Positions 1 through 53,534 of a stretch of 64,000 nucleotides of DNA are shown piece by piece. The position numbers were made by a program, and so were the translations under genes. Each line of letters starts with the position of its first letter. Within the stretch, counting starts at the first letter, position 1. This stretch comes from a virus: the IMG/VR virus record IMGVR_UViG_3300030737_000007, positions 1 through 64,000 of that record. One strand, written 5' to 3'. The notes beneath the pieces were generated by a model. The model worked only from the letters and a program-made list of their open reading frames with translations. It did not search any database and was not told the origin of the DNA.

Positions 1-1787
1 CCCACATTGGTCGTAGTGTCGATAGTGGAGTTACCTACCGTCGTGCCTGAAGTAGCAATAGGCACGACGCCGTTGGTAAGGCCAGACAGACCGCCACCCG
101 TGCAGCCGACATTCGTCACCACCGCAGTAGAGCCTGTATAGCAGAGTGTGCTGGTGCTGGGGGTGAGGTAGTTGAGTTCTAAACCTGTTGCAACGAAGGT
201 AGCTACCGTAACCGGGGCGGTATCGATCACGGTGCCCACATTCACCGCAATCGAAGAACTGACACCGCTACCTTCCGTGATCTGCTCCGTGATGGAGGCA
301 GATGTTTGGCTAACGTTTAGTGGATTTCCATTCGCGTCAACGTTAGCCCCGATGCTGAATATTCCGCTCGTATTTCCATGAAGACAGCTAGCCATGCTGT
401 TTACAGAGAAGACCGGCTCCGTGATGATGCACAGGCTGTTGTTAGGAAGGGTATAGCCGGAATTGTTGATCGAAAGCGCCTGCGACACGGCCACTGTTCC
501 AGGGTTTACGTTTCCGAAACCCAACACACTCAAAAACTGTGTTCCAGAAAAATCATCCACGTCAAAGATAGATGAGGTTTGTCCCGTAAACTCTCCGCTC
601 ACCACGAACGATGTTTGGTCGTTACCGTCTGTAGGATTCACGTACAGAGGGAGCGCAGAGGTGAGCACGCCTGAGTTGGTGATCCCGTTGTCGAGGGGTG
701 AATCGCCCAACGTCGTTGTGGATGCAGCCTGCGGAAGAAATCCTGTCGTCAGCGGCCCCACCGTCCCGCCACCTGCAACCCAGTTCCCTTCGTCATTGCA
801 GAACAGTCCGCTGGGTGTGCCATGAGGCGCGCAGTTGACGAGCTGCGTTCCCGCAGTATTCGACAGGCTGTTGAGGATTGGGCTGTTTCCGGTGATTACT
901 AGCCCGCCGCCTACCGTAAGCTTTCCGCTTACTTGTACCTGAGCCTCGAAAAGCGTATTGCTGCCGAATACCTGAGTCTGGGCCAGGCCGGGGTTGATCG
1001 CGTTGTTGAAACCAATCTGCGTGCCGGTGCTCACTGCCATAAGCTGGGGCCCAGTAGGGCTCTCGGCCAGCGAAAACACATTGCCCTCGATTGTGGACCC
1101 CATGACGTGCGAATTGGCCCCGTACCCATTCGTTCCGCGACGAAAGCTGAGCTGATTCAAGACGAGCGACGTTGGGGTTATCGAGTCCCAACAGATAGCC
1201 TCAACGATCGGAGCCGTCCAGCCGCATCCCGTCGAAGGCCAGCCGGTCGTAGATGACACAGGGATGGTTAGTGATGTGGAGGTAATGGCCGCCGTAGTCA
1301 CAAGATTTGTGACCGAGAAGGTCGGGTTGTTCTGGTCAAGATTTGCGCATGTCGGACCGGCACAATACGGTGGCAGGGCGCAGGACCCCCCTACCATGCA
1401 AGACACGCCGTTGATATCAATGACGCCCCCGCTACTGCCAGCAGAGTTGTTGCAGACATTCGGAACCACCAAACTGCCTCCGCCCGGCTTGGAGATGGTT
1501 TCCGTTACGCATTCGTTCAGAGGAATGTAGTACCCGTAGTTGCCGCTTATATCGGTAGTCACTAAAGACGACGCGATCGGAGAGGAAAGAAGCGGGTCGG
1601 AATAGATCGTGGCCGCCGCCCCTGTTGAAGTTAGAGTCACCGATACACGCGCGCCGGGCACGATTTGCGCGACGACGCCGTCATTCCCCCGCGCGATGAC
1701 TTGGGCGGTGCGATGGTATCCCGTCGTTGCTTGTCCGAATAATGGAAACGGCAAAAACAGCAAAAGTAATGTAAAGAGTAGCTTCAT
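1..1787 (-). CDS. Exported fibre-like protein, C-terminus outside window
   Basis: The frame is open from its ATG at 1787 to the left edge (about 595 residues visible). A Sec signal peptide (MKLLFTLLLLFLPFPLFGQA) is followed by a low-complexity Thr/Ser/Gly/Asn-rich body typical of beta-rich fibres. Residues ~20-100 closely match the start of the next gene upstream (both have YHR/FHR..Q-IARGN-GVVAQ and ATIYSDPLL), so the two are paralogues. The start overlaps the upstream stop as TAATG. Likely a surface or tail fibre. A signal peptide is unusual for a virion protein, so a secreted host-type protein is the alternative. Confidence 0.6.
   Translation of the reverse strand, partial: MKLLFTLLLLFLPFPLFGQATTGYHRTAQVIARGNDGVVAQIVPGARVSVTLTSTGAAATIYSDPLLSSPIASSLVTTDISGNYGYYIPLNECVTETISKPGGGSLVVPNVCNNSAGSSGGVIDINGVSCMVGGSCALPPYCAGPTCANLDQNNPTFSVTNLVTTAAITSTSLTIPVSSTTGWPSTGCGWTAPIVEAICWDSITPTSLVLNQLSFRRGTNGYGANSHVMGSTIEGNVFSLAESPTGPQLMAVSTGTQIGFNNAINPGLAQTQVFGSNTLFEAQVQVSGKLTVGGGLVITGNSPILNSLSNTAGTQLVNCAPHGTPSGLFCNDEGNWVAGGGTVGPLTTGFLPQAASTTTLGDSPLDNGITNSGVLTSALPLYVNPTDGNDQTSFVVSGEFTGQTSSIFDVDDFSGTQFLSVLGFGNVNPGTVAVSQALSINNSGYTLPNNSLCIITEPVFSVNSMASCLHGNTSGIFSIGANVDANGNPLNVSQTSASITEQITEGSGVSSSIAVNVGTVIDTAPVTVATFVATGLELNYLTPSTSTLCYTGSTAVVTNVGCTGGGLSGLTNGVVPIATSGTTVGNSTIDTTTNV
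1733..1747 (+). repeat. Dispersed 15 bp site (variant)
   Basis: GTCCGAATAATGGAA, inside the signal-peptide codons of the left-edge gene. Confidence 0.5.
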
Positions 1788-3157
1788 TAATTGCCCCTCG
1801 CCGACCACATGATGTAGATGGTGTTGGCCAGATTGGCCCCGCCACCGCCAACCAAAACGTTGGAGGCTGCGTGTGCTGTGAACCCTGTCGTGGCTATACT
1901 GTTATCCAGCACATTCACGCTGATGCTGTTGTTGCCCGAGCAAGCGCTTTGCGGGCATCCGTAAGCTGTCAGAATCGGAATGAGATTACTGGTGGTGGTA
2001 AACGGGAAGGGAAAGGTTACCGACTGGCTTGTTTGATTCGCTCCGGTAGGGATCGGACCCGCGCGGCCCCACTCCTCAATCGTCCCGTCTGCGCCAATTT
2101 CGTAGCATCCGTTTGCGTTACAGGTCCGCGAACTACCCGGTAAGCTGCAGTTCGAGCCGAGGGTGCAAGTCGTAGAGTTGTTGATCGTGAAGGAGGAATT
2201 CGCCAGAGACGAGTTCGGTATGGCAGAGGCCGTAACCGAAAGAATAGGCGCGGAAGTGGGGTTCGCCACGGACGGCGTAAGCCACGACGGCCATGAACCC
2301 GTGAGGAAGTCTGTGAGGGTTCCGGAACCTGTCGTGCAGACTCCATTGGTGGAGGTGCAGACAGGCGATCCTTGGATGTTCATAGGTACGCTAGCCGTGA
2401 TCACCACATCGGACATTGAGAGCGGGGTAACTCCGTCCGTGTTGTCGATGATGCTGAACAGCGACCCGGTGCCCGAGACCTGAAGGCTCCACGAGGTCGA
2501 ACCGGTATTGACGAGGTTCAGGCCCGTCTCAGAATGGCTGCTCTGGATAGTCTGGTCTTGGCCGAAGGTGTTCGCGTTGGATAGCAAGGGGAGGACCGAA
2601 CCGCTCGTTCCAATAGCCGTGGTGGCCGCCGCAGTAAACGCAACCCCGTTGGTCTTGAGGCAAGTGATCGCTCCACTCGCAACGAGCGTGCAATCCCCCG
2701 ATAGATTTTCGGGAGCGTACACAGATCCGGTCTGCCCCACGAGAATCTGACCAGCAGCAGGTGCCACGATGGTTCCAGTACCACCGTTCAAAGTTCCCAC
2801 CGGAAGGGCTAACCCAGCGTTACCGCAGATGTTGGCAACCGTGAGGGTACCGGAACTCGGGTAAGAGATGGTTTCCGTTACGCAGGTGTTGAGTGGCAGA
2901 TAGTAGTCGTAGTTACCTTGGTTATCGGTAGTCAGGATCGAACCCGGGATGGTCAGGGTCAGAAGAGGGTCGGAGTAAATTGTCGCGGCGATACCGGTTG
3001 CGGTGCTAGCGACGAAAATAGAGGATCCGGGTACGACTTGCGCTACAACTCCGGAGTTACCTCGCGCGATAATCTGATTGACGCGATGGAACCCGGCAGT
3101 CACTTGTGCGTGACACAAGGACGGGAGCAGCGCGAAAAGTAGGAGTAGCTTCTTCAT
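1787..3157 (-). CDS. Exported tail-fibre-like protein with gp53-like C-terminus
   Basis: 456 aa. A clear signal peptide (MKKLLLLFALLPSLCHAQ) precedes a repeat-rich body. The last ~100 residues (from about 345) resemble the C-terminal domain of phage gp53-type fibres: a conserved 'GADGTIEEWG' followed by a VTFPFPF beta segment and a final aromatic strand. That domain usually lies at the receptor-binding tip. Its N-terminal ~80 residues are shared with the downstream gene at 1-1787. Translationally coupled on both sides. Fibre role inferred from the C-terminal domain and context. Confidence 0.6.
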   Translation of the reverse strand: MKKLLLLFALLPSLCHAQVTAGFHRVNQIIARGNSGVVAQVVPGSSIFVASTATGIAATIYSDPLLTLTIPGSILTTDNQGNYDYYLPLNTCVTETISYPSSGTLTVANICGNAGLALPVGTLNGGTGTIVAPAAGQILVGQTGSVYAPENLSGDCTLVASGAITCLKTNGVAFTAAATTAIGTSGSVLPLLSNANTFGQDQTIQSSHSETGLNLVNTGSTSWSLQVSGTGSLFSIIDNTDGVTPLSMSDVVITASVPMNIQGSPVCTSTNGVCTTGSGTLTDFLTGSWPSWLTPSVANPTSAPILSVTASAIPNSSLANSSFTINNSTTCTLGSNCSLPGSSRTCNANGCYEIGADGTIEEWGRAGPIPTGANQTSQSVTFPFPFTTTSNLIPILTAYGCPQSACSGNNSISVNVLDNSIATTGFTAHAASNVLVGGGGANLANTIYIMWSARGN

Positions 3158-3429
3158 TGTTTTCCATTATCTGGACTGGTCGATTTGTCCACGCTCGCCG
3201 CGAGCTTGTTCGTTCCGTAGGGCATTAAACAAAACGTCCCCTGCCCCATAAGAATGGCGGCGGGGACCCAGAGGTCACTAATTTGTGGGTGCAGAACGCT
3301 CCAGTGCGCGAGCAGGAACCAGAGAGATGCGGTGTCCCAGCCCATGCAGAAGACAATACAGATGAGGGACGCAAACCGCCCGAAGCTGGCGTTTGAGGAG
3401 CTGCTGAGTACATCTCTAAAGAAACTCAT
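3154..3429 (-). CDS. Small membrane protein, possible holin
   Basis: 91 aa with two hydrophobic segments (about residues 17-42 and 52-70) separated by a short hydrophilic turn, then a polar tail. This matches the layout of small phage holins, but I recognise no specific family. The stop overlaps the next start by 4 bp and the start overlaps the upstream stop, so it belongs to the structural operon. An endolysin lies far upstream at 31 kb, so the holin role is an inference from topology. Confidence 0.45.
   Translation of the reverse strand: MSFFRDVLSSSSNASFGRFASLICIVFCMGWDTASLWFLLAHWSVLHPQISDLWVPAAILMGQGTFCLMPYGTNKLAASVDKSTSPDNGKQ
3162..3176 (-). repeat. Dispersed 15 bp site
   Basis: TTCCATTATCTGGAC at the junction of the 3154 and 1787 genes. 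Confidence 0.8.
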
Positions 3430-4136
3430 CGTGTTCCCTTCTGGACCATCTCGGTCTGGCGGAGCGAGTTTAATTTATCTTCGATCCATAAATTTTTCTG
3501 AGTCTGAGAAAGATTTTCCGAGGAGTCCACAAGCTGCTGCAAGAAGAGCTGCATGGTCGTCATGTAGCGAGGGTCGTTGGTGTACTCGTAGCCTTTGGCG
3601 TCAAATCCAGAGTTGTAAATGAAACTCAAGTAATCCGGAATAGGCTCCCAGGTTTGGTCAACAGAGGTGAACAAGGAAGCAGAATTCTGGTACTCAACCA
3701 CGATGTTGTACACTTGGTCGGGCGCGGGAAAGATGCGGAAGGTGATATTGCCTTCGCCGTCGTCGAACTGCGCCGAGATGCGAGCAGGCTGGTTAGTCTG
3801 AGCGTCTGCCCCAAAGATCAACCCTACCTGGAGCTCGTGGGTAAGATAACCATTTACGGGTTCGTACGCGACGGCCTTCTCGATCCACCCAAAAGTAGGC
3901 AAGTTGACTACGTAATCTGTCTGTCCGATGATGGTTACAAACGTGGGGTCCGTGAAAGTAGCCGCGGTGCGATTCCACCTCCAGGCGAACGGAGGCGACA
4001 GGATGAGTTGCTTCACCCAGTCGGCGTTGGAAAACGCGGGATCGTTCGCTGTGTTCTTTTGAAACAACAGCGGCTGTAGGCGCAGAAACTGCGACGTACG
4101 ATTGATCGTCCGCTGTAACTCAATAGTGGAGGCCAC
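3426..4136 (-). CDS. Head-tail connector-like structural protein
   Basis: 236 aa, soluble, no signal peptide. The sequence (N-terminal 'STIELQRTINRTSQFLRLQPL', internal 'FRIFPAPDQVYNIVVEYQNSA', C-terminal helix 'YMTTMQLFLQQLV') resembles head-tail adaptor proteins of podophage-like virions in length and composition. Position among virion genes supports a structural role. No catalytic motif is visible. Family assignment is tentative. Confidence 0.4.
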   Translation of the reverse strand: MASTIELQRTINRTSQFLRLQPLLFQKNTANDPAFSNADWVKQLILSPPFAWRWNRTAATFTDPTFVTIIGQTDYVVNLPTFGWIEKAVAYEPVNGYLTHELQVGLIFGADAQTNQPARISAQFDDGEGNITFRIFPAPDQVYNIVVEYQNSASLFTSVDQTWEPIPDYLSFIYNSGFDAKGYEYTNDPRYMTTMQLFLQQLVDSSENLSQTQKNLWIEDKLNSLRQTEMVQKGTR

Positions 4137-13502: not shown

Positions 13503-16399
13503 TCACAACACTAGCTGGAGGAAGTCTGAGACTGCAACCGGCGTAGCGTCATGGTAGAACCAGGCGAATCTGTTACCTTTTCCATTATGTGGAAACGGGC
13601 AAGTCGTTTCTGTTCCGCTTGCCTCATACGGTTGTTATTCCCGTATGTCCAGACTATTGCATACCTTTGCGGGTCTTCTTCGCTTAGTCGTTCACGGTCC
13701 CGTGTGTAGGGTTCCGCCTCGTTGGCATCACAGCGTCCGAGTCAATCAGAAGAAGTTTTACCTGCGCCGATGATTTAACGCAGGGTGTTGGTATACCTTC
13801 ACGGCTGTTATCTGCTGTATTACCAGCAAGATGAGTCATTTCTGCTCACCTCTTATGGTTCCAATTCCCATAAGGTCGGACTATCGCATCACCCCGAGGG
13901 GTGTTCTATCGCTTAGTCTCTCACGGCCCCTTTCGGGTTCCGCCCTGTCAGCCATCTCAGCTTCCAAGTCAATCAGATAGAATTTTCTAACTACGGCTCT
14001 CACCGTAGCGACGCAAGTATGTCTACGTTGTAGCTGACCCACGAACTAAGCTACGTTTACCAACACAGTCGGAGGCTGGGTCTGCACACCACCGATTTGA
14101 CGCGCAGGATCCGAAACCGAACCCTGTTCTGGAGCAGACTGGATGAAGAGCTTCACGTTTGTTACTCACCGTTGCCGATGGGGCGGGTCATTTCTGCTCG
14201 CCTCTGTACGTCACCGCACAGGTCGGACTATGTCATCACCCTCTTGCGAGGGGCAAGGTATATAGTCTCTACACGTTCCCGGATGTTCTCGGGCTTCGCT
14301 CGGCGTTTTCTCCAAAGGAGACGTTCACCGAATTAGCCTTGTGTTCGAAAGCAATTACTCGCTTAAGCTACCATTTTCAAATAGTTCTTCGATCCGTCTT
14401 CAGGATTCTTGCCGAGGAACACGGAGAAAATCGCGTCATCGCCAAAAATGTAAGTGTTGTAGAATGTGTTACCTGAGATGGTAACAGTAGGTGCCGTGGT
14501 CGTCTGCTTGAACTTAACCCCGCCGAACTTGATGACATCTTCGTTCTTCGGGAGCTCGAACAGCATAGCGCGCATGGAATCGTCACGCTTGATAATGTCG
14601 GTCAGACCATTAAAGCTCGTGTCGTTCAATACGTCGCGCACGACGTTGGGGTGGATGATTCCGCCGAACGAGTTGTCCATGAGAGGACGAGCGTTGACGG
14701 ATGCCAGCGACTGGGCCGCAGAGCGAATGTTGTTCGCAGTGAGGTAGGAGCCGTTGGCGAGCTGGATGTTCACCAGGGAATCGACCGCAACAGCCGAGTC
14801 AGCGGTAAGCTGGACAAGGGAGTTGAGGGTGAGGGCCAGGCGATAGTTCAGTTCGTTTGCAAGGTTCTGCAACAGACCTGGGTCATCGATGGCCACGTCG
14901 AGTGCCAAGTCCGAGGAATTGATAAAATCAGCGTACTGGCCGATTGTAGCAACGATCTTCGAGCTGGACTCGCTGATGGGGGAGCCCACGGTCCCTTCCG
15001 CCGCCTGGTTCAAATTGGCTGCGAGGAGAGCGTAGGTGTAGACAGTTGTGTTTTGGAGATGCCCTTTCGGGTCACCGGGCTTTCGCCCCTCTTATGTCAC
15101 CATAAGGTCGCTCTGTACGTCGCCGCACAGCTCGGACTCTATCTTCATTTCCAGATAATGGAAATGTCCGGCGTATTAGCCTCTACGGGTTCTGGTTGCC
15201 CAGTCTTCCCTCGGTATTGTCTCAAAGAGAGTTCCACCGATATAGCCGGATTTTACTTCAGCACATTAATACTGAATCTGGTTTCCCTGCCGAAGAGGCA
15301 GAGGGCGCTGCTTGGTCATGCTCAAAAAGGGCGTTTGGGCCTTGAGATTGGGCACGGCCTCGCGTTCATCATTGTGTTTAGGCCGCCAGCATCTCTGATG
15401 GGGCGCTCTGCATATCGCTATGCAGTTCAGACTGTATCTTCAGTTTCTTCAAAGCAATTAGGCGAAGATAAAGTTCTTCCCGTTTGGGCGGGCAATGAAC
15501 CTTGTGGCCTAATCCAACGTATTCCATTCCAGCTAGGGCCTCGTCTCTCTTGACTACGAGATACGGAAGCGTGTGGAGGAGAAACTGCTCAATGTGGAGT
15601 TTGTTGAACAAAGACCACTGGAAACAATTCCTTTTTCCTTTACTTCGAACGTCGCCGCCGTACAGTTTCTTGCAAGAATCAAGCACGGTCTTGTCGTTGT
15701 TCGAGATGGTCACGATCAGATGGTAGCAGATAACACCCCGAGAGAGGGTTTTGTTCACTCGGATGCAACCTTCGCCATCAAAGAAACCAGCCATGTAGGA
15801 GGGTTCTGCTTTGAGGTAACTGCTGTTCGTCTCAGTCGTTACGGACCCGTGTTGCTTCATTTCCTTGAGTTTTTGGAGGTATCCATGTTTCTGGTCCTCG
15901 GACAGATTTTCTCTGTTCTCAATAAACTCAATCAGAACGTCAGCTTGTTCCCTTTTGTATCTCAAGTAGGGCAGAATAGCTTTAAGGAAAGCAACGGTAG
16001 AAGGGAAGGATTGCAGGTACCAAATGTACCAATCCTCGCCTGCCTTGTTGTTTACATTGCGGGTAAAGCTGCCCCCGAAATGTAGCACAGACCACTGCAT
16101 CAAAGCTCTTGATTTATTGCTCAAGTATACTTTGGGTTCGAAGTAGGTCTTGCTTCCTCGTTTGTGGGTGGCGATCCGGATGCAACCTTCTGCATCGAAA
16201 ATCCCAGCCATGTAGCTTTTGGTTTTCTCTTTCACGGTTTCCTCGGTATTGTCTATATCCTTATGCTACCACACCTAGTAGTAAAAGTCAACAGAGTTTC
16301 ACCGATTTAGAACAGTTTTACTTCACCAAGAATTTAGTGAATGGCCACCAAGTTCGGTAGCGCGCCAGATGTAACGATTGATGCAGGAGAGTAACTCAT
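13503..16399 (-). CDS. Major capsid protein (N4-gp56-like), six exons, five group I introns
   Basis: Joining exons 16399-16340, 15382-15268, 15042-14365, 14164-14048, 13822-13782 and 13595-13503 gives 1,104 bp, 368 codons with one terminal stop, a normal MCP size. Exon 1 ends 'GALPNLVAI'; exon 2 reads 'NLKAQTPFLSMTKQRPLPL', exon 3 'YTYALLAANLNQAAEGTVG' through 'DGSKNYLKMVA', exon 4 'VKLFIQSAPEQGSVSDPARQ', matching the order in N4-gp56-type capsid proteins. Each joint follows a T and each intron ends in G. Boundaries may be off by several bases; intron 2 has an alternative pair (ATT|CAT). Exon 5 (about 14 codons) is the least certain. Lies after the scaffold-like gene. Confidence 0.75.
13580..13594 (-). 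repeat. Dispersed 15 bp site (variant)
   Basis: TTCCATTATGTGGAA in MCP exon 6, right after intron 5. Confidence 0.65.
13596..13781 (-). ncRNA. Group I intron 5 of MCP gene
   Basis: About 186 nt, no ORF. Elements: CTGATTGACTCGGACGC, AACGACTAAGCGAAGAAG, GCAATAGTCTGGAC and GGCAAGCGGAACAGAAACGAC, each with a counterpart in intron 4. Confidence 0.7.
13823..14047 (-). ncRNA. Group I intron 4 of MCP gene
   Basis: About 225 nt, no ORF. Elements: GAGAGACTAAGCGATAG, a CACCCCTCGGGGTG hairpin, GCGATAGTCCGACC (P7 pairing GACTA/TAGTC) and GAGGTGAGCAGAAATGAC. Sister of intron 5 rather than of introns 1-3. Confidence 0.75.
14165..14364 (-). ncRNA. Group I intron 3 of MCP gene
   Basis: About 200 nt, no ORF. 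Elements: TTCGGTGAACGTCTCC, AGAGACTATATACC, GACATAGTCCGACCTG (P7 pairing GACTAT/ATAGTC), GTACAGAGGCGAGCAG. Related to introns 1 and 2. Confidence 0.8.
15043..15267 (-). ncRNA. Group I intron 2 of MCP gene
   Basis: About 225 nt, no ORF. Core elements in order: ATCGGTGGAACTC, GAGACAATACCGAGG, then AAGATAGAGTCCGAGCTG and GTACAGAGCGACC. Strongly similar to intron 1. The dispersed 15 bp site (15149-15163) sits in a loop between these elements. Confidence 0.8.
15149..15163 (+). repeat. Dispersed 15 bp site inside intron 2
   Basis: Perfect copy in the intron, opposite to transcription. Confidence 0.85.
15378..16235 (-). CDS. LAGLIDADG homing endonuclease inside MCP intron 1
   Basis: 285 aa, single-chain enzyme with two LAGLIDADG motifs: 'YMAGIFDAEGCIRI' (about residue 9) and 'YMAGFFDGEGCIRV' (about residue 148). 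Each is followed by a DNA-binding alpha/beta half. The acidic residue of each motif (D/E) is present, so it is probably active. The C-terminal codons overlap the P7-P9 part of the intron and the stop overlaps the start of exon 2. It would cleave intronless MCP genes and spread the intron. Confidence 0.9.
   Translation of the reverse strand: MKEKTKSYMAGIFDAEGCIRIATHKRGSKTYFEPKVYLSNKSRALMQWSVLHFGGSFTRNVNNKAGEDWYIWYLQSFPSTVAFLKAILPYLRYKREQADVLIEFIENRENLSEDQKHGYLQKLKEMKQHGSVTTETNSSYLKAEPSYMAGFFDGEGCIRVNKTLSRGVICYHLIVTISNNDKTVLDSCKKLYGGDVRSKGKRNCFQWSLFNKLHIEQFLLHTLPYLVVKRDEALAGMEYVGLGHKVHCPPKREELYLRLIALKKLKIQSELHSDMQSAPSEMLAA
15383..16339 (-). ncRNA. Group I intron 1 of MCP gene (with LAGLIDADG ORF)
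   Basis: 5' core AATCGGTGAAACTC ... GACAATACCGAGG (P3-P4-P6 type) near 16310-16245. The 3' core AAGATACAGTCTGAACTGC (P7-P9 part) is found near 15430, inside the end of the LAGLIDADG gene. A pairing ATTCAC/GTGAA at the 5' junction resembles the one in intron 2 (ATTCAG/CTGAA). About 957 nt. Confidence 0.75.
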
Positions 16400-34182: not shown

Positions 34183-34262
34183 ACCCGGCGGTATCCGGGT
34201 TAGCTCCCCTACAACCTGGCCGCCAAGTGGCGGGGAGCGGGCAACGGGTTTATCCCGGCTAA
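34183..34262 (+). ncRNA. Structured leader RNA candidate
   Basis: Hairpin ACCCGG-cggtat-CCGGGT (34183-34200) then GCTCCCC...GGGGAGC (34203-34238), which shares bases with an alternative stem CCGCC-aagt-GGCGG. A third hairpin GGG-tttat-CCC follows. Similar two-hairpin layouts precede genes at 34078 and 35456. Confidence 0.35.
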
Positions 34263-34285
34263 TAGGTTGAGAAAGAGAGGGTTAC

Positions 34286-50690: not shown

Positions 50691-50927
50691 GTGAAGATTT
50701 CAGTCACCCAGCATCACATTGACTCAGGGGTTCGGGGAAGTTGTACCTCGGACCCTATTGCTTTGGCCCTCAAGGATCTAGGTTATGAGCGGCCCTGGAT
50801 CGGCGTGCATTACATCCGGTTGGACAAGGTAGACGTACACATGCCGTCCGAGGTGTACGAGTTCTTGAAGAGATTCGACAATGGTTTACCGCCGCTCGAT
50901 CCGTTCGAGTTTTCGCTGGAGTTCTGA
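50691..50927 (+). CDS. Hypothetical protein
   Basis: 78 aa from GTG (TAGGAG upstream): 'MKISVTQHHIDSGVRGSCTSDPIALAL...'. The 'I..GV...C..CP.A.A' theme is common in short phage proteins. TGATG junction to the helicase. Confidence 0.55.
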   Translation: MKISVTQHHIDSGVRGSCTSDPIALALKDLGYERPWIGVHYIRLDKVDVHMPSEVYEFLKRFDNGLPPLDPFEFSLEF

Positions 50928-51949
50928 TGCCCGCTAAGAAGCAAGCCCCCAAGCCGATCGCTCTCAACGAAGAGCAGCAGGCCGTGGTGTACGCGCGCGC
51001 TGGATTCTATCAAATTCTTGCCGGGCCGGGAGCTGGTAAGAGCCAATGTGTGACAACCCGGTTCGTCCAGTTGCTAAACGAAGGAGTCTCTCCGGACGAC
51101 ATTGCCTCCATGTCCTTCACTAGTACAGCGGCCAAGAACCTCAAGGACAGGGTCGAGGCTCAAGTAGGGAAGCTAACCACCACACGTAAAGCAGGCGCTA
51201 CCACCTTTCATGGGCTGGGACTTGCCTTCGCGGTAGAGGAGCGCGAACACTTTGGATACGAACTCGCCGAATTTCCGTTATGCCCTGAGCCTCTGGCAAA
51301 TAAGCTATCCGCTATTGCCGGAAAACGATTCGAAGCTGATCCCCGCTCACTGCGCGCCTACATCAGCCTTAGAAAACGGGAACGGGTTCGTGCTTCTGCG
51401 GCTGTCTCTAGAGCTGAGGCTCGCCTCGACGCCCCGGAGCTGAAGAACGCACTTGCCTACCGTCAGTACGAGAAGTCTTTGAAAGAGAACGGGGTGCTCG
51501 ATTTTGACTCCCTCATCCTAGAGATGGTCGAGATTCTGGAGAAGAAGCCCGAGGTCCGCAAGCGCTGGACACGCGGCTGGATTATGGTGGACGAGGCGCA
51601 GGACTGCGCGAAGATAGAATGGGATCTGATCAAGCTGATCTCGGGCAGGTCGGTTATGGCGGTTGGGGATATTTCGCAGGGTCTCTACGCGTTCAGAGGA
51701 AGTGATCCAGCGCTATTCGCCCACATGTCCGAGATGTTCCCGGGAACTAAAACGCTGTTCCTGGCCCGCAATTACAGAAGTTCACCACAGATCGTAGACT
51801 TCATCCGGCCTTACGCTACGTCGGCTGAACTGGCAGAGAAGTTCCATACGTCGAATCCTGCGGGCCCCCTGCCAGTTGTGAAGGGGTTCGCAAGTAGTGC
51901 TCAAGAAGTAGAATGGATAATCGCTCAGATAAAGGAAACAATAAAGTGA
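50927..51949 (+). CDS. UvrD/PcrA-type helicase, N-terminal part
   Basis: 340 aa. Helicase superfamily 1 motifs: I 'AGPGAGKSQ', Ia 'MSFTSTAAKNLKDRV', 'TFHGLGLAF', II 'IMVDEAQDCAKIEWDL', III 'VMAVGDISQGLYAFRGSD', IV 'FLARNYRSSPQIVDF'. It stops after 'EVEWIIAQIKETIK', just before the motif IVa region, which is encoded by the separate gene at 52701. Together the two parts make one complete helicase, so they probably associate as a split enzyme. Confidence 0.88.
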   Translation: MPAKKQAPKPIALNEEQQAVVYARAGFYQILAGPGAGKSQCVTTRFVQLLNEGVSPDDIASMSFTSTAAKNLKDRVEAQVGKLTTTRKAGATTFHGLGLAFAVEEREHFGYELAEFPLCPEPLANKLSAIAGKRFEADPRSLRAYISLRKRERVRASAAVSRAEARLDAPELKNALAYRQYEKSLKENGVLDFDSLILEMVEILEKKPEVRKRWTRGWIMVDEAQDCAKIEWDLIKLISGRSVMAVGDISQGLYAFRGSDPALFAHMSEMFPGTKTLFLARNYRSSPQIVDFIRPYATSAELAEKFHTSNPAGPLPVVKGFASSAQEVEWIIAQIKETIK

Positions 51950-52704
51950 GTAGGAGAGGACAGGCCCGAAATATCCCAATGTTGGGAAAGAAATTTGGGA
52001 AGCTGACAGTTTTAGAGCGGGCAAATGGGCTGAGAAACGGGCGTTATTGGCGTTGTGAATGCGAGTGCGGGCATAGTAAGGTGGTGTTTGGTAACGAACT
52101 GCGGCGAGGAAGTACTTGGCATTGTGGGTGCTCCAACAAAGCAGTTATCGACTTGGTGGGAAGAAGATACAACAGGTTGCTTGTCTTGGGGAGGGATCTT
52201 GAGAAAGAAAGGGAGAGCAAGAAGAGAAAGGTATGGTGGAAATGCGCTTGTGACTGTGGGAACCTTAAAACCATATGCAGTTCTGATTTGACTTGGAAGC
52301 ACATTCAAAGTTGTGGATGTTTTCTAAGAGACACCCGGGGACAGTCCACCTTGAAGCACGGTTTGGCTAGAGTGGGCGCAAAAACATTAGAGTACACAAT
52401 GTGGGCGCACGCCAAGAAGCGAGCCAGAGATCGGAATATTCCTTTTGACATCAAGCCGGAAGACATTGTCATTCCCGATAAATGTCCTATATTCGGGACA
52501 CCGCTGAGGTCCAGCAAAGGCAACGGAGGCAAGATGACTTCAAACAGTCCTTCTCTTGACAGAACCATTGGTGAGCTTGGCTATGTCAAAAGCAATATTA
52601 GCGTTATCAGCCGAAGAGCTAACACTATAAAGAATGACGCCTCTTCAGAAGAACTAAGGGCTATCGCCAATTACATCGATAAGCAGACCAAAGAGGCCGC
52701 GTGA
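51946..52704 (+). CDS. HNH-family homing endonuclease splitting the helicase
   Basis: 252 aa from GTG 51946 (the ORF also has an ATG at 51913). Two zinc-ribbon repeats ('WRCECECGHSKVVFGNELRR' and 'WKCACDCGNLKTICSSDLTW') for DNA binding, then an HNH-like domain ('DKCPIFGTPL', 'SPSLDRTIGELGYVKSNISV', 'RRANTIKNDAS'). GTGA stop/start overlaps at both ends fuse it into the helicase operon. Base composition is more A-rich than neighbours, a sign of recent arrival. Confidence 0.85.
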   Translation: MSRRGQARNIPMLGKKFGKLTVLERANGLRNGRYWRCECECGHSKVVFGNELRRGSTWHCGCSNKAVIDLVGRRYNRLLVLGRDLEKERESKKRKVWWKCACDCGNLKTICSSDLTWKHIQSCGCFLRDTRGQSTLKHGLARVGAKTLEYTMWAHAKKRARDRNIPFDIKPEDIVIPDKCPIFGTPLRSSKGNGGKMTSNSPSLDRTIGELGYVKSNISVISRRANTIKNDASSEELRAIANYIDKQTKEAA

Positions 52705-53534
52705 CAGAAAAGCAAACAATTAGCATCCTAGCCAGAACCAATCGCGCGCTACTTCCTTTTGAGCAAGCGCTGTCGGCCGCCAACATACCCTTTTATTACG
52801 TGAATAAGAGTGGATTTTTCAACCAGACGGAGATACAACTAACTCTTGCCTACCTCGGGGCCTCCCTCTTTCCCGCGAATTACCTCATCTCTGGTATGCT
52901 TCGGGGCGATCTGCACCCGACCAAATTTCTCCCGCGTACTCGAATCTCCGCGAAGCTAAAGGAGTTGAAAGCCGAAGATGAAGACGCCTCCTACTGGGCA
53001 ATCCTTACTAAGGAACCGCAGCGCCTGGTCGAGCCCCGCAATTTGGAAGCTGTCCGTAATTTCACGCAGTTTGTGCATAGCCTGTCCCGCTACCGCGACC
53101 TGTCTGCCGCCGACGCCCTTAAACAACTCTTCGGCGCTCTCCGGATAGGAGACCACTTCTCAGAGATGGAGTACGCAGACTCGGACCCACTGGAGAACCT
53201 GGCGGCTCTATCCAAGATGGCAAGCAAGTACGGTTCAATCAAAGAGTTTTTGGATTTCTGCCGGAGGGTCGCCGCAGCGTCTAAGAAAAAGACCGGCGTG
53301 GCCTTATCGACCTGTCATAGTTTCAAAGGAATGGAAGCCGATACGGTGTACCTCGTACAGTGCTCGGAGGGTATAATCCCGCACAGCAAAGCGACTGATC
53401 TAGACGGGGAGCGTAATGTGTTTTTCGTAGGCTGCTCTAGACCTCGCCGCGAACTTGTGATAAGTTATTCAGGAACCCCCAGTGTGTTCCTTGCGCCGTT
53501 TATAAAGAAGGAGAAAGCTGATGTTCAAGCCTAG
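52701..53534 (+). CDS. UvrD/PcrA-type helicase, C-terminal part
   Basis: 277 aa from GTG 52701. Begins 'TEKQTISILARTNRALLPFEQAL' (motif IVa), continues with V 'GVALSTCHSFKGMEADTVYLVQ' and VI 'ERNVFFVGCSRPRRELVIS'. Lacks all ATP-binding motifs, which are in the upstream gene. Confidence 0.85.
   Translation: MTEKQTISILARTNRALLPFEQALSAANIPFYYVNKSGFFNQTEIQLTLAYLGASLFPANYLISGMLRGDLHPTKFLPRTRISAKLKELKAEDEDASYWAILTKEPQRLVEPRNLEAVRNFTQFVHSLSRYRDLSAADALKQLFGALRIGDHFSEMEYADSDPLENLAALSKMASKYGSIKEFLDFCRRVAAASKKKTGVALSTCHSFKGMEADTVYLVQCSEGIIPHSKATDLDGERNVFFVGCSRPRRELVISYSGTPSVFLAPFIKKEKADVQA

Follow-up and report, generated by a model that had tools for sequence, protein, structure and literature searches.

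The two helicase ORFs and the gene between them

The window analyzed here is a stretch of 64,000 nucleotides, positions 1 to 64,000 of the IMG/VR virus record IMGVR_UViG_3300030737_000007, and the source record, a contig of 91,894 bases, carries terminase, portal, and capsid genes that identify it as the genome of a tailed phage. In a replication and recombination region that also contains genes for SSB, a RecT-like protein, a PD-(D/E)XK nuclease, a primase-helicase, and polymerase A, two ORFs on the plus strand encode a UvrD/PcrA-type helicase, which is complete between them. The upstream ORF, hereafter the N part (50927..51949, 340 aa), comprises domains 1A and 1B and the first part of 2A, with motifs I, Ia, II, III, and IV, while the downstream ORF, the C part (52701..53534, plus strand, 277 aa, with a GTG start), supplies the rest of 2A and domain 2B, with motifs IVa, V, and VI. 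The N part matched the Pfam family UvrD-helicase PF00580 (6.7e-44) over profile positions 1-270 of 271 and the PHROGs family phrog_1967, DNA helicase (9.3e-49), and the C part matched Pfam UvrD_C (8e-25) and the same phrog_1967 (1.3e-25). The elements expected of an SF1A helicase, i.e., Walker A GxGK(S/T), DExQD, GDxxQ, the Arg of motif IV, motif V, and the Arg of motif VI, are all present but distributed over two chains. A search for a second UvrD N-domain found none in the 91.9 kb record of the window or in 8 other records with the same split.

The space between the two parts is occupied by an HNH endonuclease gene (51946..52704, plus strand, 252 aa), whose product matched phrog_3322, endonuclease (6.9e-35), and phrog_374, HNH endonuclease (8.2e-31), in PHROGs. 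Pfam and NCBIfam gave no match for this protein, and its assignment depends on PHROGs. Two zinc-knuckle-like repeats (W.C.C.CG...CGC) precede the HNH domain (CP..G...SPSLDR...GY...N...RAN..K), and the protein could be aligned with gp45 of Roseobacter phage CRP-7 and with S-SKS1; both the profile match and the conserved CP..G, SPSLD[RK], GY, N, AN..K motif required for membership in phrog_3322 are met. The GC content of the gene is 47.8%, against 54.7% in the surrounding 21 kb. At the first junction (51931..51949, plus strand), a Shine-Dalgarno AAGGA lies inside the end of the N part and is followed by GTGA, in which the GTG start of the HNH gene overlaps the TGA stop of the N part; at the second (52688..52704, plus strand), a Shine-Dalgarno-like AAAGAGG is followed by another GTGA, in which the GTG start of the C part overlaps the TGA stop of the HNH gene. 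The GTGA overlaps, at 51946-51949 and 52701-52704, are spaced 755 nt apart, and the 751 nt from the N part stop to the C part start are entirely HNH coding sequence. An alternative HNH start exists at ATG 51913, but GTG 51946 is favored because the AAGGA precedes it and because a decayed homolog in a related virus (L230, described below) likewise opens with GTG right after the N part stop.

The two parts were modeled separately with AlphaFold2, giving a mean pLDDT of 91.7 for each, and the predicted models were compared with PcrA and UvrD by VIA-align. The N part model aligned to residues 4-345 of PcrA (3pjr, Z 30.6) and 2-342 of UvrD (2is4), and the C part model to residues 343-639 of UvrD (3lfu, Z 21.4) and 348-645 of PcrA (3pjr). 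The two models tile both reference structures consecutively, without gap or overlap, and the 1A-1B-2A-2B fold criterion is met. The cut falls inside the RecA-like domain 2A, in a surface loop that follows the final helix of the N part (324-339), the one after motif IV, and precedes the opening strand of the C part (7-11), which is that of motif IVa. Sequence comparison with PcrA puts the break at the same point, at about residues 344-350. Read consecutively, the two chains share their fold, motifs, and domain order with PcrA, UvrD, and Rep; each of the latter is a single polypeptide in the examples compared, whereas two ORFs, cut inside domain 2A, are found in all 12 members of the group described below. 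The initial annotation, made from the sequence alone, had placed motifs I-IV in one gene and IVa-VI in the other with nothing missing, and had described the 755 bp between the halves as exactly one HNH gene with GTGA overlaps on both sides; the former claim held according to Pfam and the structural tiling, and the latter was confirmed by the junction coordinates.

Distribution and maintenance of the split

A second record matches the window at 100% identity over the 14.6 kb compared, and a split in the same loop was found in eleven further IMG/VR virus lineages (L097, L226, L227, L228, L229, L230, which comprises four records, L234, L235, L236/L098, L245, and L254), whose N and C parts are 51-64% and 48-68% identical to those of the window, respectively. 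Because of the near-identical second record and the eleven other lineages, an assembly error private to one contig can be ruled out. Misassembly and a recent chance break were both considered and rejected, since neither would yield the same split in eleven further lineages. When the N or C part was used as a single query against viral contigs, only the near-identical copy of the window was recovered, and the relatives were reached through alignments. Among cultured phages, tblastn gave only matches of about 30%; bacterial genomes, when scanned, yielded only 22-41% matches to the C part, and none of these was close to the split clade. To our knowledge, no member of this clade has been cultured.

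The intact genes that the initial annotation proposed to look for in relatives do exist. Nearly all of the viral UvrD-type genes fetched by family alignment (about 80) are single ORFs, and ten relatives (L017, L018, L100-L104, L106, L107, and L111), among which the nearest are 35-41% identical in the N part, read through the same joint via a short loop. In a maximum-likelihood tree of ten split members and 16 intact homologs, from which L245 and L254 were left out because they were found later, the split genes group in a single clade, supported at 100/100, that is placed within the intact single-ORF homologs. This shows a single origin of the split genes, and the simplest reading of the tree is that the helicase was most probably broken once, with the break then being inherited.

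Both halves have remained under purifying selection. Over all pairs, the uncorrected pN/pS has medians of 0.35 for the N part and 0.43 for the C part and maxima of 0.44 and 0.53, respectively, although the values are approximate, synonymous sites being mostly saturated. At the key positions of motifs I, II, III, IV, IVa, V, and VI, all ten compared members that cover them carry the same residues, except for minor substitutions such as S/T at 39, Y/F at 254, T/V at C13, and V/T at C243. One might suppose that the gene is dead, with its halves decaying or yielding no functional enzyme, and broken helicase genes do occur: L085, which was examined as another potential split and rejected, apparently carries a frameshift in this part of the gene. 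Both halves nevertheless keep open frames and unchanged catalytic residues and are under purifying selection in 10-12 lineages differing by up to half of their residues, which makes this supposition very unlikely.

It might also be proposed that the halves no longer belong to one enzyme and now act as separate proteins, e.g., an ATPase (N part) and a regulator or DNA-binding protein (C part). Each half would be free to evolve alone, and the distances between members in the N half are uncorrelated with those in the C half. The ATP site of SF1 helicases is, as a rule, dependent on residues of motifs V and VI; here, those residues are found only in the C half, where they are invariant in the clade. 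Moreover, blocks inside each half are equally uncorrelated, and mosaic recombination therefore accounts for the missing correlation. We consider this proposal hardly tenable. For the same reason, coevolution of the halves was dropped as evidence of contact, because a lack of correlation that extends into the halves reflects general mosaicism and is uninformative.

Start of the C part, introns, and inteins

Translation of the C part has its own signals. In 11 of the 12 C parts, an ATG or GTG just ahead of motif IVa is accompanied by a Shine-Dalgarno-like stretch, the exception being L097, without a clear one, while such a combination occurs at only 6% of random in-frame codons of the same genes. 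The initial annotation had named two outcomes that would refute its reading, namely, a C part that is not produced at all or RNA splicing that joins the halves. The former is countered, in silico, by these start signals, and the latter found no in silico support, as follows.

In the splicing hypothesis, the interval would consist of one or more introns whose removal restores one continuous helicase mRNA. Precedents can be found: in phage ICP1, essential genes that contain variable endonuclease inserts are restored by splicing (PMC10448857), the probable capsid gene of the window itself has two group I introns, and the gene for CRP-7 gp45, the nearest cultured relative of the window HNH protein, is carried by a group I intron within a reductase gene. 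Rfam models, however, gave no intron match at this locus in any of the ten split members scanned, even at permissive thresholds, while the positive controls worked, scoring 79 bits in CRP-7 and 51-53 bits at other places in the window. Nor is there room for a ribozyme, because the 751 nt of the window are all HNH coding sequence and the shortest interval, about 384 nt in L227, is filled by two small genes. Taken with the separate starts of the C parts, these findings make splicing of the mRNA very unlikely.

The other route to a single chain would be a split intein that rejoins the halves as protein, as in a "fractured gene." Fractured phage genes with split inteins exist, one of them linked to the gp41 DNA helicase (PMC12468823), and intact relatives of the present helicase carry inteins. 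In L115 (3102-5615), a related helicase of 838 aa contains, near motif IV, an insert recognized by Pfam as Intein_splicing (1.9e-9), and L018 (3998-6640, the same gene as L099) has an intein-like insert after Gln251 of motif III, which corresponds to the annotated intein site of Bacillus phage SPO1 gp34.33. Like the window helicase, the SPO1 protein is a UvrD-type phage enzyme into which a mobile element has inserted, but its intein is annotated as spliced out, and the site at motif III differs from that of the split. This helicase family has been invaded by mobile elements repeatedly. In the split genes, however, the N part extends only about 3-12 residues past the conserved helix and the C part begins 4-9 residues before the motif IVa strand, and these ends are too short to hold intein halves of tens of residues. 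A split intein is therefore all but excluded, unless an intein half is supplied in trans from elsewhere. The absence of a recognizable intron or split intein at the locus is thus a firm result within the scope of these searches.

Origin of the split and relation to known systems

The interval between the halves spans about 380 to 2257 nt across the members, and its content varies. L230 contains, directly after the N part stop, a shortened and frame-broken HNH gene that is 65% identical to the window HNH in the HNH domain; L097 contains a GIY-YIG enzyme and small genes; L235 contains an HNH gene unrelated to that of the window; and L226, L227, L228, L229, L234, L236, and L254 contain small ORFs only. 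The interval of L245 was not read gene by gene. Among the relatives, endonuclease genes or their relics were found between the halves only in L097, L230, and L235. The initial annotation had held that the HNH gene split the helicase, and this claim held only in part: the split exists in at least 12 lineages, most of which have other genes in between, and the HNH gene as splitter is a best guess. Which element split the gene first is uncertain, because the HNH family of the window was not detected between the halves in 10 of the 12 members, including the one with the GIY-YIG gene and the one with the other HNH gene.

Several of the small genes between the halves (in L226, L228, L229, L230, L234, L235, L236, and L097) end in ...KESE or KESR and share the ribosome-binding stretch AAGGAGTCC(A/G).ATAATG. 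A very small membrane protein, with a D-rich DW motif at its C terminus, recurs in the same intervals, and the region looks like one of cassette-type shuffling. A repeat of the form GGAGTCC...ATAATG lies between small genes in several relatives and is absent from the window at the helicase locus. In L234, the N part is immediately preceded by a gene for a GIY-YIG plus helix-turn-helix endonuclease (239-1330).

Two origins can be considered. One possibility is that an HNH-family homing endonuclease was the original splitter, an inference that we favor with moderate confidence because the L230 relic lies at the same spot and because HNH genes of the window's family are situated directly behind the intact helicase genes of L104 (5915-6448) and L107 (about 1610-2152). 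The latter arrangement is what would be expected of a free-standing homing endonuclease that targets a neighboring gene. Another possibility, which concerns the origin only, is that a block of small phage genes, at a spot of gene shuffling, made the split and that endonuclease genes arrived later. Most members do carry small cassette-like genes between the halves, several of them with the shared AAGGAGTCC-type ribosome-binding stretch. Against this, the HNH relic of L230, which branches early in the split clade, mirrors the layout of the window right after the N part stop, and intact helicase genes have free-standing HNH genes of the window's family next to them; we accordingly rate a small-gene origin as the weaker of the two, without dismissing it.

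Under the HNH-first reading, a single UvrD/PcrA-type helicase gene would have been broken once, in the common ancestor of the phage clade, at the surface loop between the post-motif-IV helix and the motif IVa strand. The splitter would most likely have been a homing endonuclease gene of the HNH family that the window still carries; as a free-standing gene adjoining or targeting the helicase, it would have moved into the helicase gene. Its insertion would have brought a stop, a Shine-Dalgarno sequence, and a start, and the halves would have come to be translated as separate chains, with translation in the window presumably coupled through the GTGA overlaps. The two chains are supposed to fold against each other across domain 2A to compose one ATP-driven helicase. 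Later, the insert would have decayed or been lost or replaced in most descendants, while the halves stayed separate. We think it likely that the present enzyme is such a two-chain helicase, arising from one HNH-type split and reassembling in trans, although assembly, helicase activity, and the HNH gene as first splitter are all inferred, in the absence of biochemical data and of a two-chain model. A bolder reading, to which we incline by a modest margin, is that the clade has permanently adopted a two-chain UvrD-type helicase cut in the RecA-like domain 2A, that the split has outlived its mobile element, and that the joint now serves as an exchange spot for endonuclease and small genes. Separate supply of the chains could conceivably control the timing or the amount of helicase formed.

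The closest precedents are phage enzymes encoded in pieces. NrdA of Aeromonas phage Aeh1, split by mobE, keeps its activity, and gp43A and gp43B of phage 25 co-purify as an active polymerase; reassembly has been reported or inferred for these two and for T4 gp39/gp60 with mobA (PMC2988022). As with Aeh1 NrdA/mobE, the gene of an essential-type enzyme is expressed here as two independently translated chains around a free-standing HNH gene, without an intron (PMC2988022), and three of the features that define the Aeh1 type are present, i.e., a continuous gene in relatives, an endonuclease gene in the gap of the window without an intron or intein, and selection on both pieces. The present case differs in that the enzyme is an SF1A helicase, the HNH protein comes from another family (phrog_3322), activity has been reported for Aeh1 but is only inferred here, and the split is common to a divergent clade, most members of which now have other genes in place of the insert. 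The topoisomerase of T4 (genes 39/60, with mobA) and the DNA polymerase of phage 25 (gp43A/43B, with a seg-like gene) are likewise replication enzymes made as two chains with an adjacent endonuclease gene (PMC2988022), though neither is a UvrD-type helicase. Among the fractured phage genes, Dassa et al. (2009) reportedly described a helicase gene in two pieces with an endonuclease gene between them, and the link to the replicative helicase gp41 is documented (PMC12468823). There, however, each piece bears half of a split intein, and protein splicing yields a single chain, whereas the split UvrD-type genes lack intein halves, and gp41 is a DnaB-type helicase and not a member of SF1A.

The initial annotation had drawn a parallel with the splitting of phage ribonucleotide reductase and topoisomerase genes, and that parallel is supported by the intact relatives, the clade-wide conservation, the separate C part start, and the failure to find an intron or split intein. 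Its view that the halves reassemble remains an inference by analogy, without biochemical evidence. Its impression that a split helicase had not been described agrees with our search, in which no report of a split UvrD-type helicase was found in the open literature, the split-intein gp41 case being known; most subscription papers lay outside the search, so such absence is unproven.

Reductase, topoisomerase, and polymerase have been known as phage enzymes split by homing endonucleases, and for a free-standing UvrD-type helicase of two chains we found no such report. The clade offers a natural series, from intact genes through a split with a whole HNH gene and a split with a decayed one to a split with other cargo, and this series illustrates how a parasitic insertion can turn into a fixed protein architecture. 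A ready-made split point in a RecA-like domain would be useful for studies of motor coupling in SF1 enzymes and for engineered conditional helicases. Annotation pipelines, on the other hand, will overlook two-chain helicases or label them truncated.

Introns, a ribozyme, and an unusual helicase were also observed in the window and its relatives. Two group I introns (Rfam RF00028, 50.9 and 53 bits) lie on the minus strand of the window at 14204-14392 and 15113-15280, flanking an ORF of 216 aa (14366-15013) with a weak match to a major head protein, with an HNH gene (15381-16235) beside them; the capsid gene of the window appears to consist of several exons. An HDV-like ribozyme (RF02682, HDV-F-prausnitzii) was found on the plus strand at 34203-34271 with 45 bits, barely over the 44-bit cut-off. 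In Roseobacter phage CRP-7 (L240), the B12-dependent ribonucleotide reductase at 1127-3745, annotated as two genes, is interrupted by the group I intron that scored 79 bits, and the HNH protein carried by this intron is related to that of the window. Finally, L071 (3944-4978, the same as L262) encodes a UvrD-type helicase of 345 aa that keeps the core motifs while most of 1B and 2B is missing, and it represents a minimal SF1A helicase.
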